A DNA stretch of 24,805 bases, taken from the IMG/VR virus record IMGVR_UViG_3300003690_000082, positions 1 through 24,805 of that record; one strand, 5' to 3'. The notes beneath the pieces were generated by a model that worked only from the letters and a program-made list of their open reading frames with translations, had not been told where the DNA came from and did not search any database. Shown here in pieces: positions 742 to 24,207 of the stretch. A program made the translations under genes and the position numbers. Numbering within the stretch: position 1 is the stretch's first letter; each line of letters begins with the position of its first letter. The stretch is from a virus.

Positions 742-2754
742 GTGGCAAAGTTCATGGATGATTGGGGATGGTCATTAGGTCTTGGAGCGCTGGTAGGGGG
801 ACTCGGGGGCTTTGATAATCCTGCGGCGTGGGGTTCGGCTAGCGGTGCGTTACTTAATGCGATCAGAGGAAAGAATATTGGGAAGGGAGCCCTTGCTGGT
901 GGAATCGGTGGATGGGGCGGCGGTATGGGTAGGCAATCTTGGGATAGGTCGGTGGCAGACCCAGGATTGAGGGCCGCTCATGCAGCAGAGCAGGCTAAAC
1001 TCCCCGCAAAATATAGATCAGCATATAAACGCCCACCATTGAATTTGAGCTGGCATGGCGGCGCAGCCACGCAGAACCCGTATGAGCCAGATCCTTCACA
1101 AATGAAGGCAGCGTGGAAGGACCCTAAATTTGCCGCACAATATATGATTGCAAAAGCAGGTGCTCCTCAGGGTCAATCTACCCTTGCGAAGTGGGCATGG
1201 CCTATAGGCGCTGGTGGCGCAGCATATTATGCTACCAAAGAAAAACTGGATAAAGATTACGACAAAGATTTAGAAAAACTGAGAGCGGCCGGTGAAGCAG
1301 CTAAAGAATATCCTGTTGGAGCAGAGGGTTTTGCTCATTTCCAAGCAGCTGTAAGGGCGTGGAAAAGGGGAGATAAAGAATTAAGGGCAAAGTATGAAAC
1401 ATTGGCTGATCTTTTGGTTGCATATGGGCAGGGGGAAAGAGAAATAGCAGGAATAGATGTTAGTAAGTACGATGCCCCATCGGTATTTATAGGGCCAGAA
1501 AAGTTTGATGAACAACAACAAACAGTAACTGCGGCTGAAGGTGGATACATCGAAGGATACCTGAAAGGCGGTGATGTGGATGTGATGGATACCCTTTCCG
1601 ATGCCGCTGGTGGTGTGGGGGGTGGCCTTTCCGATGCTGCTAAATGGTATGGCGGAGAGATGAGTGATACCACTAATATAGATAGGATGAATTCCCAGGT
1701 TGGCGCCCTAGGCGGCGAGGAAATTACCGATGTAATTCCAAAGGGAATTATTGAGCAGATAATAGAATGGATAATTGCAAATGGCGGAGAACCAACTTTG
1801 GACGCTATTATTGCGAAAGCTGAGGAATGGGGCGTCCCGGTTCCACCGTCACTGAAGGCGAAAGATGAAATGCAGAAAAGAGCCATTCGAAGGCATATGC
1901 CAACGGCTGATCCTGAACCATTAGCCGGTATGGGAGCTCCACTGCCGCCTAGCCTGCCCACGGGTCCGGGTTTAGGACAACCAGCCGGTATGGGCGCCCC
2001 ACTGCCGCCTGGCCTGCCCCCTGGCCTGCCCATGGGTCCGGGTTTAGGACAACCAGCCGGTATGGGCGCCCCCCCGGGTATGGGAGTTCCTGTCAGACGC
2101 GCCTGGGGAGGCCCGGCATCCCCTTACTGGGATCGATACCAGTACGGAGGTGAAGTCATGCCTCCCACTAGGCCGGTTTTAGGACAACCAGCCGGTATGA
2201 GCGCTCCACTGCCGCCTGGCCTGCCGCCTGGGCCGCCTTTAGGGCAACTGACCACTGGCCTGCCGCCTGGGCCGCCTTTAGGGCAACTGACCACTGGCCT
2301 GCCGCCTAGGTCGGCTTTAGGGCAACCTACCGGTATGGGCGTTCCACTACCGCCCGGCCTGCCGCCTGGGCCGGGTTTAGGGCAGCCTGTCGGTATGAGA
2401 GCTCCACTGCCGCTTGGCCCGCCCACTGGACCGGCTTTAGGGCAACTGCCCCCTGGCCTGCCGCCTAGGACAGGTTTAGGACAACCAGCCGGTATGCCGC
2501 TTGGGCCGGGTTTAGGGCAACTAGCCGGTATGGGAGTTCCTGCTAGACGTGCATGGGGTGGCCCAGCAGCCCCATATTTGGATCGATATGATGACGGCGG
2601 ATACGCCCACGGCGGATCGCCCTTTCCAAGGCAAGATGATATTCCTGCCATGTTAAGTGACGGCGAATTCGTGATGACCAAGGATGCCGTGGATGCTGCC
2701 GGCGGGCCGGGTCCGATGTATGATCTTATGTACGATCTTGAGGGAAGGGTTTAA
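742..2754 (+). CDS. Large virion protein with Gly/Pro-rich tandem-repeat domain (670 aa)
   Basis: Starts with GTG at 742, placed by an AGGAGGG Shine-Dalgarno at 728-734 that overlaps the previous stop. The N-terminus (about residues 10-65) is Gly/Ala-rich and hydrophobic, followed by a charged helical region (about 150-235). A GGYIEGYLKGG element lies near 268-278. A long Pro/Gly/Leu repeat occupies about 393-605 (units such as GLGQPAGMGAPLPPGLPPGP). The C-terminal motif DDIPAMLSDGEFVMTKDAV is known from tape-measure-related and other virion proteins of marine and other phages. I infer a structural or tape-measure-associated protein, not an enzyme. The repeat region is much richer in GC than the surroundings and carries a perfect 39-bp duplication, so its length probably varies. 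The next gene begins two bases after the stop. Confidence 0.75.
   Translation: MAKFMDDWGWSLGLGALVGGLGGFDNPAAWGSASGALLNAIRGKNIGKGALAGGIGGWGGGMGRQSWDRSVADPGLRAAHAAEQAKLPAKYRSAYKRPPLNLSWHGGAATQNPYEPDPSQMKAAWKDPKFAAQYMIAKAGAPQGQSTLAKWAWPIGAGGAAYYATKEKLDKDYDKDLEKLRAAGEAAKEYPVGAEGFAHFQAAVRAWKRGDKELRAKYETLADLLVAYGQGEREIAGIDVSKYDAPSVFIGPEKFDEQQQTVTAAEGGYIEGYLKGGDVDVMDTLSDAAGGVGGGLSDAAKWYGGEMSDTTNIDRMNSQVGALGGEEITDVIPKGIIEQIIEWIIANGGEPTLDAIIAKAEEWGVPVPPSLKAKDEMQKRAIRRHMPTADPEPLAGMGAPLPPSLPTGPGLGQPAGMGAPLPPGLPPGLPMGPGLGQPAGMGAPPGMGVPVRRAWGGPASPYWDRYQYGGEVMPPTRPVLGQPAGMSAPLPPGLPPGPPLGQLTTGLPPGPPLGQLTTGLPPRSALGQPTGMGVPLPPGLPPGPGLGQPVGMRAPLPLGPPTGPALGQLPPGLPPRTGLGQPAGMPLGPGLGQLAGMGVPARRAWGGPAAPYLDRYDDGGYAHGGSPFPRQDDIPAMLSDGEFVMTKDAVDAAGGPGPMYDLMYDLEGRV
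1918..2601 (+). repeat. Degenerate Pro/Gly-coding repeat block with duplicated Arg-Arg-Ala-Trp cassette
   Basis: In-frame repetitive DNA encoding many variants of a unit close to LGQPAGMGAPLPPGLPPGP (unit lengths are multiples of 3 nt). A 25-residue non-proline cassette beginning GMGVPVRRAWGGPASPYWDR (2077-2150) recurs as GMGVPARRAWGGPAAPYLDR (2527-2601), each followed by a Tyr- and Gly-rich turn. The repeats flank and surround the cassettes, so the block looks built by repeated in-frame duplication. All duplications keep the frame. Confidence 0.85.
2218..2295 (+). repeat. Perfect 39-bp tandem duplication
   Basis: Two identical, adjacent 39-bp copies (2218-2256 and 2257-2295), each encoding GLPPGPPLGQLTT. 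There are no differences between copies although the surrounding repeat units are diverged, which points to a recent duplication inside the Pro-rich domain. Confidence 0.9.
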
Positions 2755-9023: not shown

Positions 9024-9298
9024 TTGTTATCTGGTATAAACCCATCTGGCATCTTTGGATACATATTCCTGAGAATCGTATCTTCGTCAGCTGCTTCCAT
9101 TAGTATATGTGCCGATATTGCGTTCATATTGTAGGCCATTTCCCTGACAGAAAGAAGGTTTTTGAATTGCCTGGTGGTACTGATCAAGATCGCGCTGTAA
9201 ACTTCCTCTGCCTTTGACACATCCATATCATCGCGTATGCTTTCTGCCAGTTCGTTAATTTTTTCCGACACTCTGTTTAGAATTTCCGTTCTTTCCAT
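9020..9298 (-). CDS. Lone minus-strand hypothetical protein (92 aa)
   Basis: A 92-residue, acidic, mostly helical protein (MERTEILNRVSEKINELAES...). ATG at 9298-9296 is preceded on its strand by a purine-rich GAGAGAGAGG. Its stop and that of the 1027-aa gene are read from the same TTAA (9020-9023), so the two genes are convergent with a four-base overlap. Its start is only 17 bp from the divergent start of the nuclease gene at 9316. It is the only minus-strand gene between the virion and replication modules. No family recognised and no HTH, Cys pair or membrane segment seen. A regulator or small morphogenesis factor is possible, but that is a guess from placement. Confidence 0.7.
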   Translation of the reverse strand: MERTEILNRVSEKINELAESIRDDMDVSKAEEVYSAILISTTRQFKNLLSVREMAYNMNAISAHILMEAADEDTILRNMYPKMPDGFIPDNN

Positions 9299-9315
9299 TG
9301 TGGAGCCTCTCTCTC

Positions 9316-9651
9316 ATGGTTCGGAAATGGCACAGTAAATTTCGCGCCAGAAAAACAAAAACGGACGGTATCATTTTCGACTCCAAAAAGGAAGCAATTC
9401 GGTATCTCGAATTAAAGACCCTTTTCGAGCGAGGCGAAATAAAAGACCTGAAATTACAATTTAAGTTTGACTGCATAGTCAACAACAAGAAAATTTGCTA
9501 CTACCTAGCCGACTTCGTTTACCTTGATTGTGAAGGGGAAATAGTGGTCGAGGATGTGAAATCGGACTACACAGCAAAAAACCCTGTCTATCGATTGAAG
9601 AAAAAGTTGGTCGAAGCACTACATGATGTGGTTATTACTGAGGTAAAATAG
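9316..9651 (+). CDS. DUF1064-like PD-(D/E)XK nuclease (111 aa)
   Basis: Matches the phage DUF1064 pattern: KWHSKFRARKTKTDGIIFDS, then KKEAIRYLELK, an EIKDLKLQFKF strand, and LADFVYLDCEGEIVVEDVKS. Residues E26, D66 and D80-x-K82 sit where a PD-(D/E)XK nuclease has its metal-binding acids and lysine. The family is usually 100-130 aa, so this is full length. In-frame starts exist at TTG 9298 and ATG 9316; I choose 9316 because the family homology begins at KWHSK and GGAG at 9302-9305 lies upstream. A structure-specific (Holliday-junction or flap) endonuclease role has been suggested for such proteins. Here it opens the replication/recombination module, which agrees with that role. Confidence 0.8.
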   Translation: MVRKWHSKFRARKTKTDGIIFDSKKEAIRYLELKTLFERGEIKDLKLQFKFDCIVNNKKICYYLADFVYLDCEGEIVVEDVKSDYTAKNPVYRLKKKLVEALHDVVITEVK

Positions 9652-9652
9652 G

Positions 9653-9681
9653 TTGACAGTCCTTATTTTTTCAGGTAGCGT
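9653..9681 (+). promoter_or_regulatory. Possible sigma70-type promoter before the replication genes
   Basis: A consensus -35 TTGACA (9653-9658) immediately follows the nuclease stop; 17 bases later is TAGCGT (9676-9681), only 3/6 to the -10 consensus. It lies in the 183-base gap before the 9835 gene, the largest gap in the early module, so a promoter here is expected. The weak -10 keeps confidence low. Confidence 0.35.
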
Positions 9682-9699
9682 CTTGAGGCCCGTTAATAG

Positions 9700-9724
9700 A
9701 GGAGGACTTCTTGTGAGGAAATAG
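9700..9724 (+). other. Strong Shine-Dalgarno followed by a three-codon mini-ORF
   Basis: AGGAGG (9700-9705) is followed after seven bases by GTG AGG AAA TAG (9713-9724). The site is as good as any gene's in the window, yet it leads to only Met-Arg-Lys. The rest of the 9652-9834 gap shows no gene. The mini-ORF may be a leader minigene or the relic of a lost gene. Confidence 0.35.
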
Positions 9725-9834
9725 CAGGCTTATTCAGCCAGTAAGAATTTTCAATTTCTCAAAAGCACGGCAAAACGAAAGGCACGGCGAACAGCCACGC
9801 CAATCAAAGTTTACGCCCTGCGAGAGGCAGAATC

Positions 9835-10305
9835 ATGGCAAAGACAAAGCTTCAAGCCGATCTGAAGCAATTCGAAAATACCCTTAAAACTTTGGGGAGT
9901 GATCAGGAATACAGCCCATCGTTTGCCAAGGGTCTTATGGAATTGGCCGATGCATCGGTAAGGGCGGCTCAGGCCGCCAAGAAAAAGATTCAGTCCCTCC
10001 TGATGCAACATCACCATGCAACCACAAAACACCTTTTCGCTCTTGACGGCAAGGACACCGGAACCGTCAATCAACATTTCGGACCGAATCATCAACTGAA
10101 AATCGTCAAGCGCAAGAAGGTGGAATGGGATCAGAATCACCTTGAATTCCTGATGGAGAATCCTGATGTTTCTCCATACATCGAAACAAAATTTAATGTT
10201 AAAGAGGCCGAGTACGACAAGGCACCGATATCCATCAGGGACAGACTTGATGGTGGCCGTACCGTTGTGCCGTCCGATCCTGTTTTCTCAATAGAGGAGA
10301 GGTAG
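9835..10305 (+). CDS. Hypothetical early protein upstream of the Sak4-type ATPase (156 aa)
   Basis: 156 residues, ATG at 9835 with GAGAGG just upstream. The N-terminal half is helical and Ala/Lys/Gln-rich (about 1-60, SVRAAQAAKKKIQSLLMQHH). It then carries a His-rich patch (HHHATTKHLF), a basic strand region (HQLKIVKRKKVEW) and an acidic C-terminus. Proteins of this type commonly precede the AAA_24 ATPase in phage genomes, and the gap to that gene is only three bases, so the two are one operon. Basic residues in the middle might bind nucleic acid, but no catalytic motif is visible. Function unknown. Confidence 0.65.
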   Translation: MAKTKLQADLKQFENTLKTLGSDQEYSPSFAKGLMELADASVRAAQAAKKKIQSLLMQHHHATTKHLFALDGKDTGTVNQHFGPNHQLKIVKRKKVEWDQNHLEFLMENPDVSPYIETKFNVKEAEYDKAPISIRDRLDGGRTVVPSDPVFSIEER

Positions 10306-10308
10306 GCC

Positions 10309-11178
10309 ATGGATATGGTCAGCAAGGCTGAAAGAAACAGGGAACGAAGAGGGCAAAAGATAGCTCTCATCGGGGAAAGTGGTGTAGGTAAAACCACTCA
10401 ACTTTTTTCTCTTCCGCCAAAAAAGACGCTTTTCATTGACCTTGAAGCTGGAGATCTGGCGGTAGATGAATGGGAAGGCGTTTGTGTCCGGCCAAGAACA
10501 TGGGAAGAGTGTACCGACCTCGCTGTACTGGTTGGCGGCATAAACCCTGCTCTTGAAAAAGCAAAGGTTCCGTACTGCAAAAAGCACTACGATCATTGCA
10601 TCAAGAAGTATCCAGAACTTCACAAGAAAATAGCCGATCTCGAATATCTGTTTGTGGATTCGCTAACACACACAGGGCGACTGTCTTTTCAGGAAACCTC
10701 AAACACGCCCGAAGGCCTAAAGGATGCTCGAAAGGCTTATGGAGCGCATGGTCAAAACATGATCAGGTGGCTTACCCAGCTTCAACAAACCAGGCACATG
10801 CACGTTATCTTCCTTTCGATTTTGAATGAAAAGGTTGATGACAATGGTGGCCGGTACTACGACATGCAGATCGAGGGCTCAAAAACCGGAGAAGAGCTTC
10901 CAGGCATCGTCGATGAACTGATCACAATGGTGATAATGGACCCGTTTACTCCGAATCCGTACCGCGCCTTCGTTTGCAAAAAGTTGAATCGCTGGGGATA
11001 TCCCGCCAAGGACAGGGCCGGAAAACTTGAAGAGCAAGAACCGCCAAACCTTGGTGCGCTTATCGAGAAACTGAAAAAGCCCAGATCACAAAAGCTGTTT
11101 GACACCCTGAACTTCGATCTTCCAGCACCGGCAGCCATTGCCGAGGGATCCGAAGACACCCCCCCCGAGAAGGAGTAA
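10309..11178 (+). CDS. AAA_24 / Sak4-type RecA-fold recombination ATPase (289 aa)
   Basis: RecA-fold P-loop ATPase of the phage AAA_24 family, which includes Sak4 single-strand annealing/recombination proteins. Walker A is GESGVGKTT (residues 22-30); an early acidic strand TLFIDLEAGDL (40-50) follows, and Walker B is YLFVDSLTH (113-121). The segment VPYCKKHYDHC (88-97), with Cys and His residues, is typical of this group. A later strand MHVIFLSILNEK (about 164-175) fits the sensor region. The length (289 aa) is normal. The Asp/Glu/Pro-rich tail (GSEDTPPEKE) is probably disordered. It is followed five bases later by a probable SSB gene, the arrangement in which Sak4 proteins act with SSB during recombination-dependent replication. 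Start at ATG 10309, after GAGAGG. Confidence 0.8.
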   Translation: MDMVSKAERNRERRGQKIALIGESGVGKTTQLFSLPPKKTLFIDLEAGDLAVDEWEGVCVRPRTWEECTDLAVLVGGINPALEKAKVPYCKKHYDHCIKKYPELHKKIADLEYLFVDSLTHTGRLSFQETSNTPEGLKDARKAYGAHGQNMIRWLTQLQQTRHMHVIFLSILNEKVDDNGGRYYDMQIEGSKTGEELPGIVDELITMVIMDPFTPNPYRAFVCKKLNRWGYPAKDRAGKLEEQEPPNLGALIEKLKKPRSQKLFDTLNFDLPAPAAIAEGSEDTPPEKE

Positions 11179-11183
11179 GTATC

Positions 11184-11888
11184 ATGAGTCCGATGGATTT
11201 TGGTGTAGATGAGTATGCAGGATCGGGAGAGTACGATGTTCTTCCGCAGGATTCGATTGTCCCGCTAAGAGTCGATCTCGAAAGGGATAAAGAAAACCCG
11301 GACCCAAAAAGCAGTCTGTTTTATCATTCCAACCAGCCGAATTCGAATGTCTTGTTCATGAAATGGAAATTCACGGTTCTGGCTGGAAAATTCAAGGATA
11401 CATGGTTCAGGAACAATCAAACCGTAGCCGGTGGTCAAATAAATGCCAGCGGCCAATCAAAGGGCGCGGTTGTCACTGGGCGCATGGCGAGGCAGATTAT
11501 CGAATCTTCCCGCGGTATCCGTTCGGACGCAACCGATCCCAATAGTGCGGCTGCTCGAGTTCTTCAAAACGACTGGCCGGATCTGGACGGGATGATATTC
11601 CTTGGAAAGGTCGGAATCGAACCCGCAAAACAAGGATATTCAGCCAAGAACAAGCTGGTGGCTGGAATTCCGCCCGATAAAGAAGATTGGTATGACTGGA
11701 GGCAGGGTGGTGGAACACCCACGGCTGTCGCGCCTCCCGCGGTGAATACTCCTAATAATGCCGCGCCACCTGCGACAGCCCCTTCGGTAGCTCCAGTGGC
11801 GGTCCCTGCTGCTGGTTTGACGGGGGGTTTCGAACCTCCGCCAGCCGCTCCTGCCGGCAAAGGTGGTGAGCGTCCAGACTGGGCCTGA
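11184..11888 (+). CDS. Putative phage single-stranded DNA-binding protein (234 aa)
   Basis: Placed directly after the Sak4-type ATPase with a GAAGGAG ribosome site. Residues about 20-170 look like a beta-barrel domain (VPLRVDLERDKENPDPK, NVLFMKWKFTVLAGKFKDTW, GMIFLGKVGIEP) of the DUF669-like phage SSB type. Residues about 178-234 are a Pro/Ala/Val-rich flexible tail ending in GGERPDWA, coded by a GC-rich stretch. A globular DNA-binding core plus a disordered tail with a terminal aromatic is the normal plan of SSBs, where the tail recruits partners. The assignment rests on architecture and neighbours more than on strict sequence identity. Confidence 0.6.
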   Translation: MSPMDFGVDEYAGSGEYDVLPQDSIVPLRVDLERDKENPDPKSSLFYHSNQPNSNVLFMKWKFTVLAGKFKDTWFRNNQTVAGGQINASGQSKGAVVTGRMARQIIESSRGIRSDATDPNSAAARVLQNDWPDLDGMIFLGKVGIEPAKQGYSAKNKLVAGIPPDKEDWYDWRQGGGTPTAVAPPAVNTPNNAAPPATAPSVAPVAVPAAGLTGGFEPPPAAPAGKGGERPDWA

Positions 11889-11893
11889 TTTGA

Positions 11894-11920
11894 CCGTGCG
11901 CTCTTAAGGGCGCCGCACGG
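11894..11920 (+). other. Intergenic hairpin after the SSB gene
   Basis: A perfect 7-bp inverted repeat, CCGTGCG (11894-11900) and CGCACGG (11914-11920), with a 13-base loop that itself holds a CTTAAGG-like core. It starts five bases after the SSB stop. There is no T-run after it, so it is not a classical intrinsic terminator; RNA processing, transcript stabilisation or attenuation are possible. Confidence 0.55.
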
Positions 11921-11998
11921 CCAGTCCCATGGTTGGACGGTTCATTATGTCAAAAGCTAAAACTATCCTTCCGTGGGGCTGGCTCTCTGGGGCTGGCA

Positions 11999-13795
11999 AT
12001 GATTTTACGCTATTACCAAAAAGAAGCGATTGAAAAGGCTAGGGAAAAACTAAAAACTCATAATAACACCCTGATCATCGCCCCTACCGGTGCGGGCAAA
12101 ACCATAATTTTATCTGCACTCATAGAAGGGCTCCACGCTGGTGACGGTGGTGGTGGTCTGTTCGGTCCAAAGAAAACCGTGGTTCTTCAGCACCGCCTGG
12201 AACTGGTAAAACAAAACTCCGAGAAATTTCTGCGTGTAGTTCCCGACTTCCTCCTAAAAACAAGCATTTTGACCGGCAATGAAAAGGATGCCGAGGGGAG
12301 CGTGGTGTTTGCCACCGTTCAAACTCTATCCAGTGAGGCTGGCCTTAACTCGATCACTCACCTTGACTATCTGGTGATCGATGAGGCGCATCATTCAGCT
12401 GCTGATACTTACAAGCAAACCATCGATCATTACCGGGAAATAAACTCCAACCTGAAAGTTGTTGGCCTTACCGCCACGGCTGATCGGGCAGATGGAAAAG
12501 GACTTGGCGATATCTTCGATAACGTGGCCTACAAGATCGAAACCGACATGCTCATTGAAATGGGCTATCTGGTGCCTCCTGACAGTTATGTCATGGATAT
12601 AGGAATCAGCGAGGAAATTGATGAACTCGGACAGAAGAAAAAGAATATGTCGGAGGAAAAATTCAACAAAGCCTTGGCCGGACTCTACGAACCCGTGCAT
12701 TACCGGGTGGTCGAGGAATGGGAAAGAATGGCTTCCAGGAAACATACTATTTGTTTTTGCACGACCATCGATGAAGCTGTTGCGATGTCGGAACTTTTCA
12801 AAGAGAAGGGTCATAACGCAGGATATATACATTCCAGGCTTCCTTGGAAGGAAAACAGGCTTGTTATAGACAAATTCCATTCAGGTGAACTTCAAATTAT
12901 TTTCAATGTCGCCATCCTGACAGAAGGTTTCGATTGCCCCACGGTAAACTGCGTAATGCTAATGCGTTCATGCTCCGCGAAATCCACAATGATTCAGATG
13001 GTGGGCCGAGGACTTCGGCCGGTGGTCGAAGAGAAAGACCGCTGGATGGAAAAACTGGACTGCCTGGTCATGGATTTTGGCGATAGCCTTAAAATTCATG
13101 GCACCTTCAGGTCTGATGTGAATCTCGAAAAGATAAAAGAGCTCAGAAGAGATCACAGGGTCATCCAGTTGATGTGTCCGAAATGCGGGAAACTCATTTT
13201 CGTTGAAGAAGTAGATGAATACTGCCCGAAATGCGGGGAGGAAATCCTGGAAGCAATAGAAGATGGGAGTGATAAAACCGCAAAAGGGCCAATCGGAACG
13301 GGTAGAATTCCACTTAAAAACTTTTCCATGGTGCCGATTGATTTAACAAACAATTCCCCATTTGCCTGGATGGATATGGCCAATATATTCCCGAATGTTG
13401 GGGGGTCGATCATGGTGGCTACCGGGAGGGATCATTTCGTTTCCATGAAAGAGATAGAAAAGGATGTATGGATGTCGGTTGGAATACCAAGAAAGGGGCT
13501 GGCTGAATTTCTCGGTGTTGGCCGGGAGGCCATGGCTTTCGCTTATTGCAATAATTATATGTCGATGCACGAGAATGTTTCCAGCTCCAAAAAGTCATCT
13601 TCTTGGCATCGAGAAACGCCTTCAGACAAGCAATACAAGATGATCAAACGTCTTGGGTGGGATCCGAATGCGGGTGACGGACACCCGAACAATCGATACG
13701 AAGCCGCATGTATTATTTCATTCTGTTTTCACAAGAAAAAGTACAAGGCGGTTTTGGACTCTGTTTTAGAGAAGAGGAGCGTGGTTCATGGATAA
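11999..13795 (+). CDS. SF2 DEAH-box DNA helicase with zinc ribbon (598 aa)
   Basis: ATP-dependent superfamily 2 helicase. Counting from ATG 11999: motif I APTGAGKT (28-35), motif II DEAH (128-131), motif III TATA (158-161), then motif V-like ILTEGFDCP (307-314) and motif VI QMVGRGLRP (333-341). A CPKC-x12-CPKC zinc ribbon (393-412) follows, and the C-terminal 170 residues end in a SDKQYKMIKRLGW-type module seen in phage helicases. The frame stays open upstream to a TTG at 11933, but MILRYYQKEAI is the usual helicase beginning. The ribosome site before 11999 is weak (GGGG), so coupling or a leader hairpin may control it. It sits between SSB and small replication genes, implying unwinding during replication or recombination. 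Confidence 0.85.
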   Translation: MILRYYQKEAIEKAREKLKTHNNTLIIAPTGAGKTIILSALIEGLHAGDGGGGLFGPKKTVVLQHRLELVKQNSEKFLRVVPDFLLKTSILTGNEKDAEGSVVFATVQTLSSEAGLNSITHLDYLVIDEAHHSAADTYKQTIDHYREINSNLKVVGLTATADRADGKGLGDIFDNVAYKIETDMLIEMGYLVPPDSYVMDIGISEEIDELGQKKKNMSEEKFNKALAGLYEPVHYRVVEEWERMASRKHTICFCTTIDEAVAMSELFKEKGHNAGYIHSRLPWKENRLVIDKFHSGELQIIFNVAILTEGFDCPTVNCVMLMRSCSAKSTMIQMVGRGLRPVVEEKDRWMEKLDCLVMDFGDSLKIHGTFRSDVNLEKIKELRRDHRVIQLMCPKCGKLIFVEEVDEYCPKCGEEILEAIEDGSDKTAKGPIGTGRIPLKNFSMVPIDLTNNSPFAWMDMANIFPNVGGSIMVATGRDHFVSMKEIEKDVWMSVGIPRKGLAEFLGVGREAMAFAYCNNYMSMHENVSSSKKSSSWHRETPSDKQYKMIKRLGWDPNAGDGHPNNRYEAACIISFCFHKKKYKAVLDSVLEKRSVVHG

Positions 13796-14240
13796 GGAAA
13801 CCCAGCGAATATTAGGAAAGATTCAGAGACAAATCGACAAAGGCGAGAGCCTCGCCGCGGCGGCCAGCAAGGTTGGATGGCGGCGGCAAAGAGCTCACGC
13901 CCACCTGGCGAGAGGGAATCTCACGATCAAGGAAAAGGTCTTTCCCAAAACAAAAGTCGATGCCCCCGAGATTTACCGAAAATTCGGAAAGGTTGTCGCG
14001 CATATGATTGAAGACAAAAAATACGGAAGCACCTTACTGATGGTTGCCACATTTTTTGTTCAATTTGTTGCAGATATTGATGACAAGAAAGCCTACAACG
14101 TGGTGATTACTCGATTCGCAAACTGGATCCTGGATAAAGCGCCTCACAGAAATTCCGTTCAATTCCTTTTGTATTGTTCCAACCCTAACACCAGTCTTCT
14201 AAGAAAAGTGTGTGTAGCGAGGTACTTGATCAATGCCTGA
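13788..14240 (+). CDS. Hypothetical replication-region protein (150 aa)
   Basis: Starts at ATG 13788, eight bases inside the end of the helicase gene, after GAGGAG. The N-terminus is basic with a possible helix-turn-helix-like stretch (GESLAAAASKVGWRRQRAHAHL, about 18-39), which might bind DNA. The rest is helical with a hydrophobic centre (STLLMVATFFVQFVADI, about 82-98) and two Cys near the C-terminus. I do not recognise the family. Overlaps on both sides place it in the helicase/nuclease operon. Confidence 0.65.
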   Translation: MDKETQRILGKIQRQIDKGESLAAAASKVGWRRQRAHAHLARGNLTIKEKVFPKTKVDAPEIYRKFGKVVAHMIEDKKYGSTLLMVATFFVQFVADIDDKKAYNVVITRFANWILDKAPHRNSVQFLLYCSNPNTSLLRKVCVARYLINA

Positions 14241-14643
14241 AAAGTTTGAGTTCCTTAAGGGCGATGAAACCGTCTATTCCTCCAGCCTGGATGTCTTTGG
14301 CGGGAAAGAACACCAGGCCTGGGGCGCCTGTATTCCTAAGGTAGCCGAACTTCTGGGTGAGTGCGGCTGGGAAACTCGCTTGAATGAACTATCGAAAGAT
14401 AAGATCAAGCAGCTCATCCTGATCATCACGCTTGAATTTGAAAAATGGATGAAGCTAGAGCAATTGCCGGAAGGTGAGGCTCCGTTGTTTTTCAATACAA
14501 AAGTTAAAATAGACCTTCCCAAAGAGAAGGGCGGTTCTACGGGTGGCCTCATCCCGCCTGACATGGAAACGCCAACAAGGCCGAATACCGGTCCTGTAAC
14601 CGATGCTGATTTTCCCTGGGAAACTGATGGCGAACAATTTTAA
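14233..14643 (+). CDS. Hypothetical acidic-tailed protein (136 aa)
   Basis: ATG at 14233 overlaps the previous gene by eight bases. Residues 1-85 look globular and helical (WGACIPKVAELLGECGWETR, KIKQLILIITLEFEKWM). Residues about 100-136 are Pro/Gly-rich and finish in the acidic aromatic tail DADFPWETDGEQF. Such a tail recalls the partner-binding tails of SSB-type proteins, so an accessory role in the replication complex is possible. No domain family was recognised, and the tail similarity could be coincidental. Confidence 0.6.
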   Translation: MPEKFEFLKGDETVYSSSLDVFGGKEHQAWGACIPKVAELLGECGWETRLNELSKDKIKQLILIITLEFEKWMKLEQLPEGEAPLFFNTKVKIDLPKEKGGSTGGLIPPDMETPTRPNTGPVTDADFPWETDGEQF

Positions 14644-14654
14644 GGAGCAAGTAA

Positions 14655-14732
14655 ATGAGAAACGGGAGAAATAAATACAGGAACGAAGAGAGAAGGAAGG
14701 GGGGCCTGGCCAATGACTCAAATGACCGGTAA
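14655..14732 (+). CDS. Possible 25-aa basic micro-protein
   Basis: ATG at 14655 follows an AAGGAG site (14642-14647) with seven bases spacing and reads MRNGRNKYRNEERRKGG to a TAA at 14730-14732. It overlaps the start of the Cas4-like gene (14713) in another frame. Very short and Arg/Asn-rich; it may instead serve only to couple translation into the nuclease gene. Confidence 0.3.
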   Translation: MRNGRNKYRNEERRKGGLANDSNDR

Positions 14733-15498
14733 TAATTATTTCGCTCGTGTCATAAAAAATATTGAGAAAGGACAGCTTAAAAAACAAAAGAAGCAAAAGC
14801 CTCGAAACTATATCGGAGGCTCAGGCCTTGGACGGGAGTGTGAAAGGCGCATCCAGTATGACCTGACCCATCCCGGCATGAAAGAGATGCCAGAGATGCG
14901 GATGGTTCGCATTTGGGCCCTGGGTGATGCCATTGAAACTTACCTGAAAACTCTCTTGATAGAGGCTGGGTTCGATCTCTGTACGATTAAGGTGGACGAA
15001 AACGGGGACCCGATTTTAGACGAAGAAAGCAAAGAACAGCAGTATAGCTTTTCGATGGGTGATGGTCGGGTCAGGGGCCATATTGATGGTATTTTGCGGA
15101 GTGGCCCAAACATCATGATCTACCCCGCCCTATTTGAAGCCAAGTCGGCCAAACACTCATCGTTCAACAAGTTCGTCAAAAATGGTCTTGCTGTAGAAAA
15201 CCCCTCTTACTATGCTCAGGTTCAATTTTATCAAAAATGCATGAAACTCCTGAACCCGGCTCTCTGGATCATGATGAACAAGGATAATTCAGAAATCTAC
15301 GCTGAACTTGTTCCTCATCATCCTGCCTTCGCGGATTCTCTTGTCGCCAAGGCAGAAAGAATTCTTGAGGCCACTGACACCGGAACCCTTCTTCCGAGAG
15401 GGTTCAACGACAAAACTAACTGGCACTGTAAATATTGTGATTTCCAGAAAGAATGCTGGAAGGAAGAAGAGGCGACTACACCGGAATGGGCGGGATAG
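14713..15498 (+). CDS. Cas4/RecB-like PD-(D/E)XK exonuclease with Fe-S cysteines (261 aa)
   Basis: Phage nuclease of the Cas4/RecB-like PD-(D/E)XK group. Residues seen from ATG 14713: GLGRECERRIQ (38-48) with C43; WALGDAIE (68-75); the GHIDGIL motif with H123 and D125; FEAKS with E142 and K144; and YYAQVQFY with Q169, which is motif QxxxY-like. The C-terminal cysteines C239, C242 and C248 together with C43 match the four ligands of the 4Fe-4S cluster of this family. All catalytic positions are present and the length is typical. Enzymes of this type resect DNA ends and are often paired with annealing ATPases, which agrees with the Sak4-type and SSB genes upstream. It overlaps the primase-helicase gene by 13 bases. 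Confidence 0.85.
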   Translation: MTQMTGNNYFARVIKNIEKGQLKKQKKQKPRNYIGGSGLGRECERRIQYDLTHPGMKEMPEMRMVRIWALGDAIETYLKTLLIEAGFDLCTIKVDENGDPILDEESKEQQYSFSMGDGRVRGHIDGILRSGPNIMIYPALFEAKSAKHSSFNKFVKNGLAVENPSYYAQVQFYQKCMKLLNPALWIMMNKDNSEIYAELVPHHPAFADSLVAKAERILEATDTGTLLPRGFNDKTNWHCKYCDFQKECWKEEEATTPEWAG

Positions 15499-17675
15499 AT
15501 TTCGGCCAGTTCAACAATGAAAACCGGCAAGAATTTAATCCCCACCGAATAGATGACTTAAAAAGAAGCCTGAATGGTTGTGTACTTGAATTCTTGCAAT
15601 GGCTCTTTCCCGAGGGAAAGTTAAAGGGACACGAGTACACCATAGGCACCATCGAAGGTGGCGTTGGAAAATCCACCAGTTTTAATGTGTTGGCTGGAAA
15701 GGAGGGCGTGGGCGGAGATTTTGCTACAGGAGATTTTACTGGCGATTTGATCGATGTCTACTGCAAGGCTACCGGAAAAAATTTCAAGGAAGCCCTCCCT
15801 GAACTTGAGGAATGGACAGGAATTCCTGCCGTCAAGGAGGCCTCTGAAAATCCGGATATCCTCAACATATCTAACCTGCTGCCGGCAGACTTTGATATCC
15901 ATAGCGTTCCGAAATCACAAATTACATTTTATACCTATAAAGACTACGACCTGAATACCCTTCTAACAATCAAGAGAGTATCTCACTCAAGCGGGAAAAA
16001 GAGTTTCTATCCCGAATTTCCCGATGGTTCTAAAAAGATACCAGAAGACTTTGTTCGTCCTCTTTATAACCTTCCCGGCATCAATGGCGCCAGTACGGTA
16101 ATTGTTGTTGAAGGAGAGAAATGCGCCGATTACCTCAACTCTCTTGGCCTGGTGGCCACCACCAGTATTGGCGGAGCTGCCATTCCGCCAGAAAAAACAG
16201 ACTGGAACCCCCTTGAAGGAAAGGTCGTTGTCCTTTGGCCGGACAATGATGATGCTGGAGTAAAACACCAGAAAAGAATACTCGAACGCCTCAAGAAGCT
16301 GGGTGTTCGGAAAATTCGACTGGTTAAACCTCCGAGAAATGTGGATGAGAAATGGGACGCAGCTAATTGCGAACCAAAACTTATCAAGAAGCTTCTTTCT
16401 GCGGCAAAGGTTATTTACCGTCCTATCGATATCATGACCGAGGAGTTTTCCGCCAAAAGTTATGATGAGCACCCGCCAAAAAGGGAGTTCCTTATAGATG
16501 GTGGGTTCGGACTGAATTCATGCTCCATCCTGGCGGCCGAGGGTGGCACCGGGAAGAGTTTTATGTTTCTCGATCTGGCAATCAAGGTGGCTTTTGGAAC
16601 TATCTACCAAGAAGAGGCCTTTGGCGGACAGATCCAGCAGTCAGGAAGCGTGGTGTACTTCTCTGCTGAAGATGGAAGACCAGACATTCACGAGAGAATT
16701 AATTTGGTGGACATAGGAAATCCACCCAGGAGATTCAAAAACACTCCAAATGAATTGAGAATCATTCCCATGCCATCACTTGGAGTGACATTCCCCCTCT
16801 TCTATATGAGGGATGGAATACTCACCGAAAGCGATAACTGGTCGAGTATACGAGAGTCCATTCTCGAGATGGATAACCTGAAACTCATAATTCTAGACCC
16901 GCTCTCCATGCTGGTACATGCAGATGTAAATGCCGATCCATCCATGGGTTCTTTGATCATGGCAGAGTTCAACCGCCTGGCGGTAGAAACGAATTCAGCC
17001 GTATTGATATCCCACCATTTCTCGAAAGGAAATTACGATGCTCCTATTGATACTCCCGAGAAAGCTAGACAGCATGTAAGGGGGACCACAGCATTGGTAG
17101 ATTCGGCCAGAAATGTCTTTTGCCTTTGGAAAGCTACGAAAACTCAGGCCACTGAATCTCTGGCTAACCTTGGAGAGGAATATCAAAGAAATAAAATTTT
17201 TTATGGCGCTACAGTTAAAAGCAATTACCTCACCGAGGACTCGATAAAAACATTTAAAAGAGACTACACCGGAGTTCTTGTTTGTATCGAGAAGAATTAT
17301 GACTCCTCCAAAAATAAGTCGGATAATTCTCTCAATGAGGAAATCAAAAGAATTATTGCCAAAAGATCCCTCGAAGGCCGGCCGGTAACTCTGAAGGGCG
17401 AGGATAAACTTGCGCATGGAGAATTGATAGGAAAATATCAAGATATGATTCAGGGCGTGGAGGGTCTGGACAGCGCTATTAAAAAATTGGTTGATTTTGA
17501 TCCTGATGTCTTTCAGTGCGGAAGCACTGGAAATGACACCTATCAACTCGATGTAAAGGGAGGACAATATTATGTGCGATGGGTCAAAGCCGGTTACATT
17601 AAGGATCACGGGGGTGAGTCTTTTCCGTGCCTTCCAGAGGGACAGGCCGGACTTAAGGGGTTGACAGGCCCCTAG
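15486..17675 (+). CDS. Primase-helicase fusion (TOPRIM plus RepA-like AAA_25 ATPase), 729 aa
   Basis: Replicative primase-helicase. Residues 30-95 are a primase N-terminal domain of the G-GGDFATGDFTGDLIDVY type but without the usual zinc-ligating Cys cluster. A TOPRIM domain follows, with VIVVEGEKCADYL (205-217; catalytic E210), then VVVLWPDNDDAG (247-258; D253, D255). The ATPase domain has Walker A AEGGTGKSF (351-359), YFSAEDG (391-397) and Walker B LIILDPLSML (467-476), and LISHHFSKG (508-515) matches hexameric RepA/DnaB-like helicases. The C-terminal 170 residues are variable. The frame stays open to ATG 15453, but 15486 keeps only a short overlap with the nuclease gene. No DNA polymerase gene is in the window, so host polymerase or one elsewhere is needed. 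The stop lies in a hairpin. Confidence 0.85.
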   Translation: MGGIDFGQFNNENRQEFNPHRIDDLKRSLNGCVLEFLQWLFPEGKLKGHEYTIGTIEGGVGKSTSFNVLAGKEGVGGDFATGDFTGDLIDVYCKATGKNFKEALPELEEWTGIPAVKEASENPDILNISNLLPADFDIHSVPKSQITFYTYKDYDLNTLLTIKRVSHSSGKKSFYPEFPDGSKKIPEDFVRPLYNLPGINGASTVIVVEGEKCADYLNSLGLVATTSIGGAAIPPEKTDWNPLEGKVVVLWPDNDDAGVKHQKRILERLKKLGVRKIRLVKPPRNVDEKWDAANCEPKLIKKLLSAAKVIYRPIDIMTEEFSAKSYDEHPPKREFLIDGGFGLNSCSILAAEGGTGKSFMFLDLAIKVAFGTIYQEEAFGGQIQQSGSVVYFSAEDGRPDIHERINLVDIGNPPRRFKNTPNELRIIPMPSLGVTFPLFYMRDGILTESDNWSSIRESILEMDNLKLIILDPLSMLVHADVNADPSMGSLIMAEFNRLAVETNSAVLISHHFSKGNYDAPIDTPEKARQHVRGTTALVDSARNVFCLWKATKTQATESLANLGEEYQRNKIFYGATVKSNYLTEDSIKTFKRDYTGVLVCIEKNYDSSKNKSDNSLNEEIKRIIAKRSLEGRPVTLKGEDKLAHGELIGKYQDMIQGVEGLDSAIKKLVDFDPDVFQCGSTGNDTYQLDVKGGQYYVRWVKAGYIKDHGGESFPCLPEGQAGLKGLTGP

Positions 17676-20565: not shown

Positions 20566-20838
20566 ATGAACGACAAGGATAAGGACCCACGTCCACAGAT
20601 CGCGGGAGAGGCTCAGTTCAAGGCATCAAAATCATCTGAAGAAAATGGCGGTATCGAGGAGCCAAAACCGAATAAACCGGAAGGCACCATTGCGCTGGAT
20701 CGTACGGATATTCGGGTACTGGGCTTTTGTCTCGACCATTATATGAAACTTCCCGAGAAGCCCGAGGATGGCCCGCCAGAACAATTTCTCCTGGAGGCCA
20801 TGGGGCAAATAAAACTGCTGCTGGGAGAGTGGAAATGA
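20566..20838 (+). CDS. Hypothetical acidic protein (90 aa)
   Basis: 90 residues, ATG 20566 after an AGGAGG at 20549-20554 that overlaps the previous stop. The first 45 residues are Lys/Glu/Pro-rich and probably disordered (NDKDKDPRPQIAGEAQ). The second half contains a compact helical part (IRVLGFCLDHYMKLPEK, FLLEAMGQIKLLLGEWK). Its TGA overlaps the next ATG as ATGA at 20835-20838. Family unknown; two small coupled genes here may form a functional pair of acidic and basic proteins. Confidence 0.55.
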   Translation: MNDKDKDPRPQIAGEAQFKASKSSEENGGIEEPKPNKPEGTIALDRTDIRVLGFCLDHYMKLPEKPEDGPPEQFLLEAMGQIKLLLGEWK

Positions 20839-21038: not shown

Positions 21039-21042
21039 CTAA

Positions 21043-21078
21043 CCACCCGTTTTCGCCTCCAGATAGGAAAATGGGTGG
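21043..21078 (+). other. 12-bp-stem hairpin at the start of the 600-bp non-coding region
   Basis: CCACCCGTTTTC (21043-21054) pairs with GAAAATGGGTGG (21067-21078), 11 Watson-Crick pairs and one G-T, with a 12-base loop. It begins five bases after the stop of the basic-protein gene. It lacks a T-tract in either direction, so it is only a candidate for transcription termination or RNA processing. Confidence 0.6.
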
Positions 21079-21109
21079 CCAAGGGACAAGTGCTTGAAAC
21101 ATATAGCCG

Positions 21110-21510
21110 TGTCCTCCCTGGACAGAAGGTCAGGTAAAATAAAAAGAATTGTCTTATTGTCCCAGGTGGGAATGAGCCGAATATCCATATATATATAAGA
21201 AAAGCGGCCATTCCTGCTTTGGACATACCCTGGGGGGCGCCTCATGCTGTCCCAGGTGGGAATGGGCTTAATAAGTATACCCAACAAAGGAATTCAGGAT
21301 ATTCTAACTTTGGACAGTACGTTAAAGCGAAATGCGGCCAAAATGAAAAGTACATTCTAATGTCAGCGGGCTGGAAACGTATAGTCCATGGGGCGAAAGT
21401 CCATTCCCTTAATGTAACTTCTGATGGTTGTATGGTGTCATTGTCCTTGTCGGACAAATGACCGTATGCCAATAAAAACATATCCCTACAGCTTGTGGTC
21501 ATGTCGGACA
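21110..21510 (+). promoter_or_regulatory. Operator or iteron array: five TGTCC-N5-GGACA-type dyads
   Basis: Within the gene-free stretch 21039-21639 two perfect dyads TGTCC-N5-GGACA occur at 21110-21124 and 21442-21456. Three degenerate ones (8/10 positions) lie at 21158-21172, 21248-21262 and 21496-21510. The second and third are also parts of a 17-bp exact direct repeat TGTCCCAGGTGGGAATG (21158-21174, 21248-21264). Tetramers GACA/TGTC total about 15 here, against roughly 5 expected by chance. An A/T-rich tract (21136-21160) and a TA run (about 21189-21199) lie between sites. This is what an operator cluster or an origin with iterons looks like; which one cannot be read from sequence. Confidence 0.55.
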
Positions 21511-21531
21511 GCACGGTTTTCCATTTTCGGC

Positions 21532-21551
21532 TACTCTCTATAGAGAGAGTA
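21532..21551 (+). promoter_or_regulatory. Palindrome resembling a T7-type promoter core
   Basis: CTCTCTATAGAGAG (21534-21547) is a perfect 14-bp palindrome within an 8+8 bp inverted repeat TACTCTCT-ATAG-AGAGAGTA. The segment ACTCTCTATAGAGAGA matches the T7 late-promoter core ACTCACTATAGGGAGA at 14 of 16 positions, while the upstream specificity part does not match. It faces the HNH gene 90 bases downstream. It could be a single-subunit RNA polymerase promoter or simply a symmetrical protein-binding site. Confidence 0.4.
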
Positions 21552-21558
21552 AGTAACG

Positions 21559-21578
21559 GGCCGCTTTTATGAGCGGCC
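21559..21578 (+). other. GC hairpin downstream of the palindrome
   Basis: GGCCGCT (21559-21565) pairs with AGCGGCC (21572-21578) around a 6-base loop TTTATG. It would lie at the 5' end of any RNA started at the 21542-21543 palindrome, as 5' stabilising hairpins often do. No T-run follows. Confidence 0.5.
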
Positions 21579-21639
21579 GTACATTGGAGAAAAATGATAA
21601 AATGGACGCCCCAAAAATGATACGAAAAGGAGAAAAAAT

Positions 21640-22898: not shown

Positions 22899-23092
22899 GA
22901 GACTGTATGAATTGCCGGCATGCAAGATGGGAAATATCATCGCATACCGGAGAATGTGTGTTCCCGCTTCCAAGGTGGATCCTGGAAATAACCGGCAAAG
23001 GAGGAAAAATAAATACGAAGTATCCATATACCAACTGTCCCGCATGGGAAAAAATGAACAAAAAGGTTGAAATTAATATATATTGTCCGTAA
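22895..23092 (+). CDS. Cys-rich mini-protein (65 aa)
   Basis: 65 residues coupled to the acetyltransferase by ATGA at 22895-22898. Cys at 4, 7, 21 and 48 (CMNCRHARW, GECVFPLP, TNCPAWE) form a probable zinc- or Fe-S-binding site; C64 is extra. The pattern CxxCxHA...GxCxxPLP...NCPAW is one I associate with small conserved phage proteins of unknown function. A GKGGK loop lies in the middle. No membrane part or signal. Confidence 0.6.
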   Translation: MRDCMNCRHARWEISSHTGECVFPLPRWILEITGKGGKINTKYPYTNCPAWEKMNKKVEINIYCP

Positions 23093-23115
23093 CTAACGCG
23101 GAAAGGAAACGCGAA

Positions 23116-23811
23116 ATGATAAAAACCCCAGGCCTGAAAATAAAAAAACCAGCATTAAGTATAGTCGCAAAAGAATCGAAGAAAAAAACCAGAACACGAA
23201 AAAAACCCGAACCGATCGTGCCAGAAGAAGACGGTCTGCACTCTAGCCCTGAACAAAATCTAGTCGATGTGGCACACTCGCAAATGGACGCAGGAACTAA
23301 AAAAATTCTGGAGTCTATGTATTTGCACGGAATGAGTATCAAACAAGCCTGCGAACATGCAGGTGTTAAATATTATCGCTCTAAAATGATCGTCGCACGT
23401 TCAGAAGTCGCTAAAGCATATATCGAGCATCTACTTGAAAGAGCCGCCGTTATACGCGAATTCGGAGTGGATGACCTGCACCTCGTGGAACTGGTTAAAA
23501 TACGAGATATGGCCAGAAATACCGGCCAGGGAGCAGCAGCAACTCGAGCGCATGAAATATGTATGAAAGCAATCGGCCGCCTTTCAAAGGAAGAAAGGCC
23601 TCAAGATTCACTTAAATCAGTCAAGGAAATGACAAGGAAAGAAATGCTCGAAGAATTTTCTAGATATAAGATGAAGGCTGACGGGGAACCGCTTGTTTCT
23701 ACTGAGAAATCAGTCCAAAAAGAGAAGGCGGAGCTGCTGGCGCGCGGGTCGCGCCCCGCCGCCATTCTATCGCCCCCCAACGACATCGGCGCGCGCATTA
23801 ATTTCGCGTGA
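23116..23811 (+). CDS. terS: Probable small terminase subunit (231 aa)
   Basis: Start at ATG 23116 with AAAGGA upstream; an in-frame TTG at 23083 is less likely. Residues 1-35 are Lys/Arg-rich. A helix-turn-helix-like segment follows (LESMYLHGMSIKQACEHAGV, 65-84), which would recognise the packaging site. A helical oligomerisation region around VKIRDMARNTGQGAAATRAHEICMKAIGRL (127-156) has the look of small-terminase helices, with a long flexible tail behind it. The C-terminal 27 residues are coded by abruptly GC-rich DNA (from about 23730). A generic HTH regulator is the main alternative. The large subunit is not adjacent; instead a repeat-rich zone follows that might hold its recognition site. 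Confidence 0.55.
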   Translation: MIKTPGLKIKKPALSIVAKESKKKTRTRKKPEPIVPEEDGLHSSPEQNLVDVAHSQMDAGTKKILESMYLHGMSIKQACEHAGVKYYRSKMIVARSEVAKAYIEHLLERAAVIREFGVDDLHLVELVKIRDMARNTGQGAAATRAHEICMKAIGRLSKEERPQDSLKSVKEMTRKEMLEEFSRYKMKADGEPLVSTEKSVQKEKAELLARGSRPAAILSPPNDIGARINFA

Positions 23812-23832: not shown

Positions 23833-23924
23833 ATGGGAGCCATCGCCGGCGCGCGCGCACGACAAATAATGTCGTTTCTGGACAAATAATGTCTGCCGAT
23901 GGGAGCCACCGCCGGCGCGCGCGC
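23833..23924 (+). repeat. Two 26-bp GC-rich direct repeats with alternating CG tracts
   Basis: Copy 1 (23833-23858) and copy 2 (23899-23924) begin ATGGGAGCCATCGCCGGCGC and differ at one base (T/C). Each ends in an alternating GC run of six to twelve bases, a Z-DNA-prone pattern. The copies are 66 bp apart (start to start) and flank the paired GACA-N5-TGTC sites. No gene is seen in 23812-24207. Confidence 0.85.
23861..23893 (+). promoter_or_regulatory. Twin 13-bp sites GACA-N5-TGTC with 20-bp phasing
   Basis: The identical sequence GACAAATAATGTC appears at 23861-23873 and 23881-23893. Each is an inverted pair of GACA/TGTC half-sites around an all-A/T spacer. Centres are 20 bp apart, about two helical turns, so two protein dimers could bind on one face. 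It follows the probable small-terminase gene. Confidence 0.6.
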
Positions 23925-23942: not shown

Positions 23943-24103
23943 TGGGTTTTGGTATGTTTTAGTGGGTTTTGGTAGGTTTTGGTATGTTTTGGTTTGATAG
24001 GTTTTGGTGGGTTTTGGTAGGTTTTGGGTTTGGTGGGTTTTGGTATGTTTTGGTAGGTTTTGGGTTTGGTGGGTTTTGGTATGTTTTGGTAGGTTTTGGG
24101 TTT
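23943..24103 (+). repeat. G/T-rich tandem repeat array with 36-bp period
   Basis: About 160 bases made of GGTTTTGG-type units on the plus strand. Two identical 36-bp copies (24019-24054 and 24055-24090) and a 13-base partial third (24091-24103) follow a more degenerate portion. Many GG/GGG runs give G-quadruplex potential, with an adenine/cytosine-rich complement. Open frames in both strands (12-residue repeating peptides) are by-products of the 36-bp period, not supported genes. Confidence 0.8.
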
Positions 24104-24207
24104 CCAGGCGCCGGCGGCCGGCCTGGCGATGAGCTCTTGAGCGAGATAAACTCCAGGCCAGCCACGGCAGCTTATGCCGGCCCAGAGTCTCCCGGTGCTA
24201 GCTGTTT

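Follow-up and report, generated by a model that had tools for sequence, protein, structure and literature searches.

An array of three facing pairs of TGTCC half-sites lies in gene-free DNA of a phage represented by IMG/VR record IMGVR_UViG_3300003690_000082 (24.8 kb; this whole stretch is referred to as the window). Here, we report that the two words of each pair stand at a constant distance (TGTCC-N(57-59)-GGACA), that the same geometry is kept in a diverged relative, and that the array is probably a site where phage proteins assemble to start genome packaging or copying. Our tentative first choice, which we put a little short of an even chance, is a packaging-initiation (cosB/pac-like) site on whose three facing pairs a candidate small terminase subunit (TerS) would assemble.

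The sole phage found to share the neighbouring genes is a syntenic relative (segment L020 of the 60.8-kb record G001; possibly incomplete, with genome-wide counts covering about 59 kb). It was recovered via a two-sequence primase alignment, has the gene order of the window with 44-76% protein identity for most genes, and likewise has a gene-free stretch (L020:20850-21420) followed by homologues of the HNH-like and TerS-like genes. Single-sequence scans with the HNH-like, TerS-like and primase proteins returned no relatives, a further HNH scan, queried with an alignment, returned the same phage and nothing else, and DNA searches of the array region against phages and plasmids gave no meaningful match. 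An exact 16-mer (TGTCCCAGGTGGGAAT) had 10 matches in viral contigs, about the chance number for a collection of that size, and was discarded. All statements on conservation therefore concern two genomes. The description of the region as gene-free in the initial annotation holds in this comparison: no open frame there is clearly conserved in the relative, and stop-to-stop frames gave few peptide matches (11-30 residues), all weak and scattered.

Half-sites alternate strictly in orientation and form facing pairs (Table 1), which in the relative measure 62, 63 and 62 bp start to start. In both genomes, gaps of exactly 22 and 125 bp separate the pairs. Outside the cores and two islands, the two arrays resemble each other poorly; with these gaps identical and sequence diverged, distance was kept while sequence changed. 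Within the window, the left half of unit 2 is nearly identical to that of unit 1, and unit 3 shares only the core with units 1 and 2, being degenerate outside it. In the relative, all six half-sites repeat a single 25-bp motif, with no greater likeness inside a unit than across units; when each half-site was left out in turn, it outranked all other positions in about 59 kb.

The arrangement is exclusive to the array. TGTCC/GGACA words are clustered (10 in 430 bp, against a maximum of 7 across 300 shuffles), and TGTCC-GGACA pairs at 62-64 bp occur three times in the window, three times in L020 and nowhere else in the roughly 59 kb of the relative. When all 1,024 five-letter words were tried, TGTCC alone gave three such pairs within 400 bp in L020; in the window, TGTCC was joined by one CG-rich low-complexity word. 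A scan for the geometry with no prescribed word, over 3.35 Mb (both strands counted), matched only the window phage and L020. A genome-wide scan of repeat density, also tried as a detector, did not single the array out.

Table 1. Positions of the array, neighbouring features and comparable repeats (window coordinates unless another segment is named)
Feature	Position	Strand	Details
Perfect TGTCC-N5-GGACA dyad	21110-21124		outside the conserved geometry; without counterpart at the equivalent L020 position
Unit 1	21158-21225		TGTCC 21158-21162, GGACA 21221-21225; 63 bp start to start; counterpart L020:20984-21050
Unit 2	21248-21316		TGTCC 21248-21252, GGACA 21312-21316; 64 bp start to start; counterpart L020:21073-21140
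Island between units 2 and 3 (125-bp gap)	21344-21365		TGAAAA(G/A)TACATT(C/G)TAATGTCA; 20/22 identical in L020
Unit 3	21442-21510		TGTCC 21442-21446, GGACA 21506-21510; 64 bp start to start; counterpart L020:21266-21332
Island after unit 3	21505-21533		23/29 identical in L020; includes invariant CATTTTCGGCTA at 21522-21533
Short palindrome	21532-21551		core CTCTCTATAGAGAG; L020 position occupied by an unrelated, equally perfect palindrome, TTATTATTAATAATAATAA
G+C-rich inverted repeat	21558-21578		same place in L020; no T-run behind it
HNH-like protein, 268 aa	21640-22446	+	homologue (58% aa identity) downstream of the relative's array; similarity to HNH families sub-threshold
Helix-turn-helix TerS-like protein	23083-23811	+	62% aa identity in the relative; 1.5 kb downstream of the array
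DSL-LC04 inverted repeat	L138:20562-20597 and 20729-20764
HTVC023P inverted repeat	L140:11622-11648 and 11816-11842

The initial annotation had taken the unit to be a TGTCC-N5-GGACA dyad, present twice in perfect form (21110-21124, 21442-21456) and three times with 8 of 10 positions matching (from 21158, 21248 and 21496). These five are all in the sequence, as are the exact 17-bp direct repeat TGTCCCAGGTGGGAATG at 21158 and 21248 and the excess of TGTC/GACA tetramers, estimated there at about threefold and measured at 3.7-fold over 21040-21639. The choice of unit was nonetheless wrong. With up to 2 mismatches, the N5 dyad occurs 15 times in the window versus 8.55 (standard deviation, 2.9) in shuffled controls, 10 of the 15 outside the array. 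Its loss from related phages with conserved flanking genes had been named as grounds for abandoning it, and this is the state of L020, which retains the flanking genes yet has no N5 dyad, not even one with a single mismatch. The perfect dyad at 21442 turns out to be unit 3's left half-site. What survives of the proposal is a putative binding-site array adjoining the HNH-like gene, backed by recurrent half-sites, an exclusive motif and a geometry kept in a diverged relative.

Unit centres may be bent. The roughly 59 kb of the relative contain three exact matches to the consensus for the DNA-bending protein IHF (WATCARNNNNTTR), two of them centred in array units (position 34 of 67 in unit A and 35 of 68 in unit B); units A and B are alike, so that the two are not fully independent. 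The best IHF site of unit C, with 2 mismatches, is also at position 34. No IHF match was found in the window, whose unit centres are 67-88% A+T; the centre of unit 1 (87%) carries a TA run, and an A/T run is found in this unit only.

Assembly on such an array might proceed as follows. A phage DNA-binding protein would settle on the three facing half-site pairs of double-stranded DNA. Half-sites within a pair are six helical turns apart (62-64 bp), which puts both on the same face of the DNA, and a bend at the pair centre, made by IHF in the relative and by A/T-rich DNA in the window, would fold the pair back so that one dimer could grip both half-sites. The fixed 22- and 125-bp gaps would then bring three such loops together in a single complex. 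The small terminase subunit encoded downstream would be the likeliest reader; were the TerS-like protein the reader, the array would be a packaging-initiation site.

Candidacy of the TerS-like protein rests on gene position and weak similarity. Its gene occupies the genome position of the annotated terS of phage DSL-LC04, and the two proteins gave a weak profile match (hhalign E value, 4e-4; 36 residues); no terminase small subunit family matched above threshold. The TerL and portal proteins of G001 are closest to those of HTVC027P, 023Pt_psg01, DSL-LC04 and HTVC023P (TerL, 52-56%), phages of 57-62 kb whose annotated terS lies several kilobases from terL, between the replication genes and terL, as does the TerS-like gene of the window. 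In DSL-LC04 and HTVC023P, the gene-free DNA directly before terS holds imperfect inverted repeats (36 nt and 27 nt, respectively; Table 1), which may serve these two phages in packaging or as an origin. The array resembles these regions in its position relative to terS and terL and in having long inverted repeats; repeat sequence, arm length and spacing differ, and those regions have no TGTCC array.

Between the array and the TerS-like gene stands the HNH-like gene. Conservation of its product is highest in the C-terminal 80 residues. The protein keeps CGYSxCxNxxHL, and the first His of usual HNH motifs is seemingly missing; it may bind DNA instead of cutting it. Structures predicted for the HNH-like and TerS-like proteins were of low confidence (pLDDT, 43 and 51), and a fold search with them returned nothing. 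In the relative alone, a 194-aa open reading frame with a weak HNH match (L051:2390-2974, minus strand) lies between the array and the HNH-like homologue; it may be a homing endonuclease that inserted next to the array.

Lambda cosB offers the closest parallel in design. Of its three TerS sites, R2 faces the opposite way from R1 and R3, and IHF bends the DNA between R3 and R2 so that a TerS dimer can dock on these two together (PMC4669245, PMC4856287); in HK97, cos cleavage is aided by an HNH protein (PMC11331095). Like cosB (R3-I1-R2-R1), the array would combine opposed sites flanking a bend, of which the orientation alone is observed here, with fixed spacing and adjacent packaging-type genes. 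Unlike cosB, it has three facing pairs rather than R3/R2 plus R1, a pair spacing of six turns and an unrelated site sequence, no cosN was identified, and the exact IHF consensus is confined to two units of the relative. We therefore describe the array as cosB-like in design, short of established membership in lambda-type cosB. The array also recalls pac sites of the SPP1 pacL/pacR type, in which TerS contacts several regions set at fixed intervals about a central segment. SPP1 TerS boxes have no common sequence (PMC4856287), whereas half-sites here share a core and, in L020, the 25-bp motif.

This cosB logic, tripled beside HNH-like and TerS-like genes, ranks packaging first and an origin second. 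Against packaging stand the HNH-like gene intervening before terS, the weak TerS identity, the different repeats carried by the structural-gene relatives, the occurrence of the array in two genomes only, the degenerate unit 3 of the window and its missing IHF match; no physical genome end was seen at the array, and neither contig ends there. A bolder proposal, which we regard as possible and hold more loosely, is that of an undescribed packaging or replication-initiation site consisting of three bent loops of identical geometry, with six half-sites and an IHF-type bend in each loop, in which selection would hold the spacing to the base pair and let the recognition sequence drift along with the protein that reads it. 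If our first-choice reading is right, the array would supply a testable cis-site for widespread podovirus-like phages of about 60 kb, for which no described packaging or replication signal was found, and a clear case of nucleoprotein-site spacing outliving sequence. Such sites would be sought through conserved distances between inverted words, not through sequence conservation.

A replication origin is the leading rival, though we consider it less likely; here an initiator of the phage, possibly its primase-helicase or some protein not recognised as such, would occupy the half-sites, and bending or looping would open the DNA. The replication genes come upstream of the array within one gene series, and neither a DNA polymerase nor a known initiator was recognised, for which reason the phage would depend on a cis-site for the host's machinery. 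Origins commonly hold repeats, A/T tracts and IHF sites; multiple motif copies in gene-free DNA, with possible IHF help, are also found in the iteron origins of plasmids and phages. Iterons, however, are direct repeats, whereas the half-sites here alternate in strict facing pairs. Conservation of the A/T tract does not extend to L020, the GC-skew minimum named as a check in the initial annotation is absent and no other skew change marks the array, and the annotated genes nearest to it are HNH-like and TerS-like rather than an initiator gene. The replication initiator suggested in that annotation as the binding protein keeps a place among the candidates and loses the first one, since a packaging site fits the surroundings better.

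Structured non-coding RNA, in which each 67- to 69-nt unit would form an imperfect hairpin and two further hairpins would come after, was initially favoured for its good folding and now appears improbable. Unit 1 of the window and unit A of L020 do fold far better than shuffles (z scores, -5.1 and -4.7), plus-strand arm pairing within units is best or tied best among arm permutations, and in L020 a wholly different yet still perfect palindrome takes the place of the one after unit 3. The two strands of the region, however, fold about equally well, and arm mismatches are balanced between G-T (20) and A-C (21) instead of showing the strand bias of wobble pairing; such balance implies no strand preference and makes a double-stranded DNA site likelier than RNA. 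Half-sites of different L020 units are as alike as those within one, linkers that would be unpaired (22 and 125 nt) are exact in length, and no Rfam family scored above its gathering threshold, the hits being generic sub-threshold hairpins (among them P26 in L020). Strand pairing may still have some role, given the plus-strand arm pairing and the replaced palindrome.

Least probable is an operator or enhancer cluster controlling the genes from HNH onwards through a looping repressor or activator: the array is directly upstream of a gene run and looped repressors also use half-sites in helical phase, but neither the window nor about 59 kb of the relative holds a further site, no promoter scored above chance, and no gene next to the array was recognised as a repressor or regulator. 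The repressor named in the initial annotation likewise found nothing in its favour, dispersed copies of the site being absent, and its partition protein found no partition system among the annotated genes.

Two islands are the exceptions to the poor likeness between the arrays (Table 1). The one in the 125-bp gap contains an inner dyad, ACATT-NN-AATGT. In the one after unit 3, a likeness of CATTTTCGGCTA to the I2 segment of lambda was considered and is too short to claim.

The genomes are mosaic. In the window (9298-17675) and G001, the replication module (Sak4-type ATPase, helicase, exonuclease and primase-helicase) resembles that of Wolbachia phage WO and AcaML1, and the structural module is of the HTVC023P/DSL-LC04 type, elsewhere accompanied by a DNA polymerase. 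As for an attP with integrase arm sites, no integrase gene was found among the 25 of 43 families listed, G001 being possibly incomplete. After the TerS-like gene, a T/G-rich tandem repeat (23945-24105) comprises about 16 copies of GGTTTTGGTA-like units; the dyad GACAAATAATGTC stands twice ahead of it (23861-23873, 23881-23893), and the record of the relative ends just before this point. At the other end of the window (2002-2532), tandem repeats of 12-60 bp encode Gly/Pro-rich stretches of a 670-aa open reading frame.
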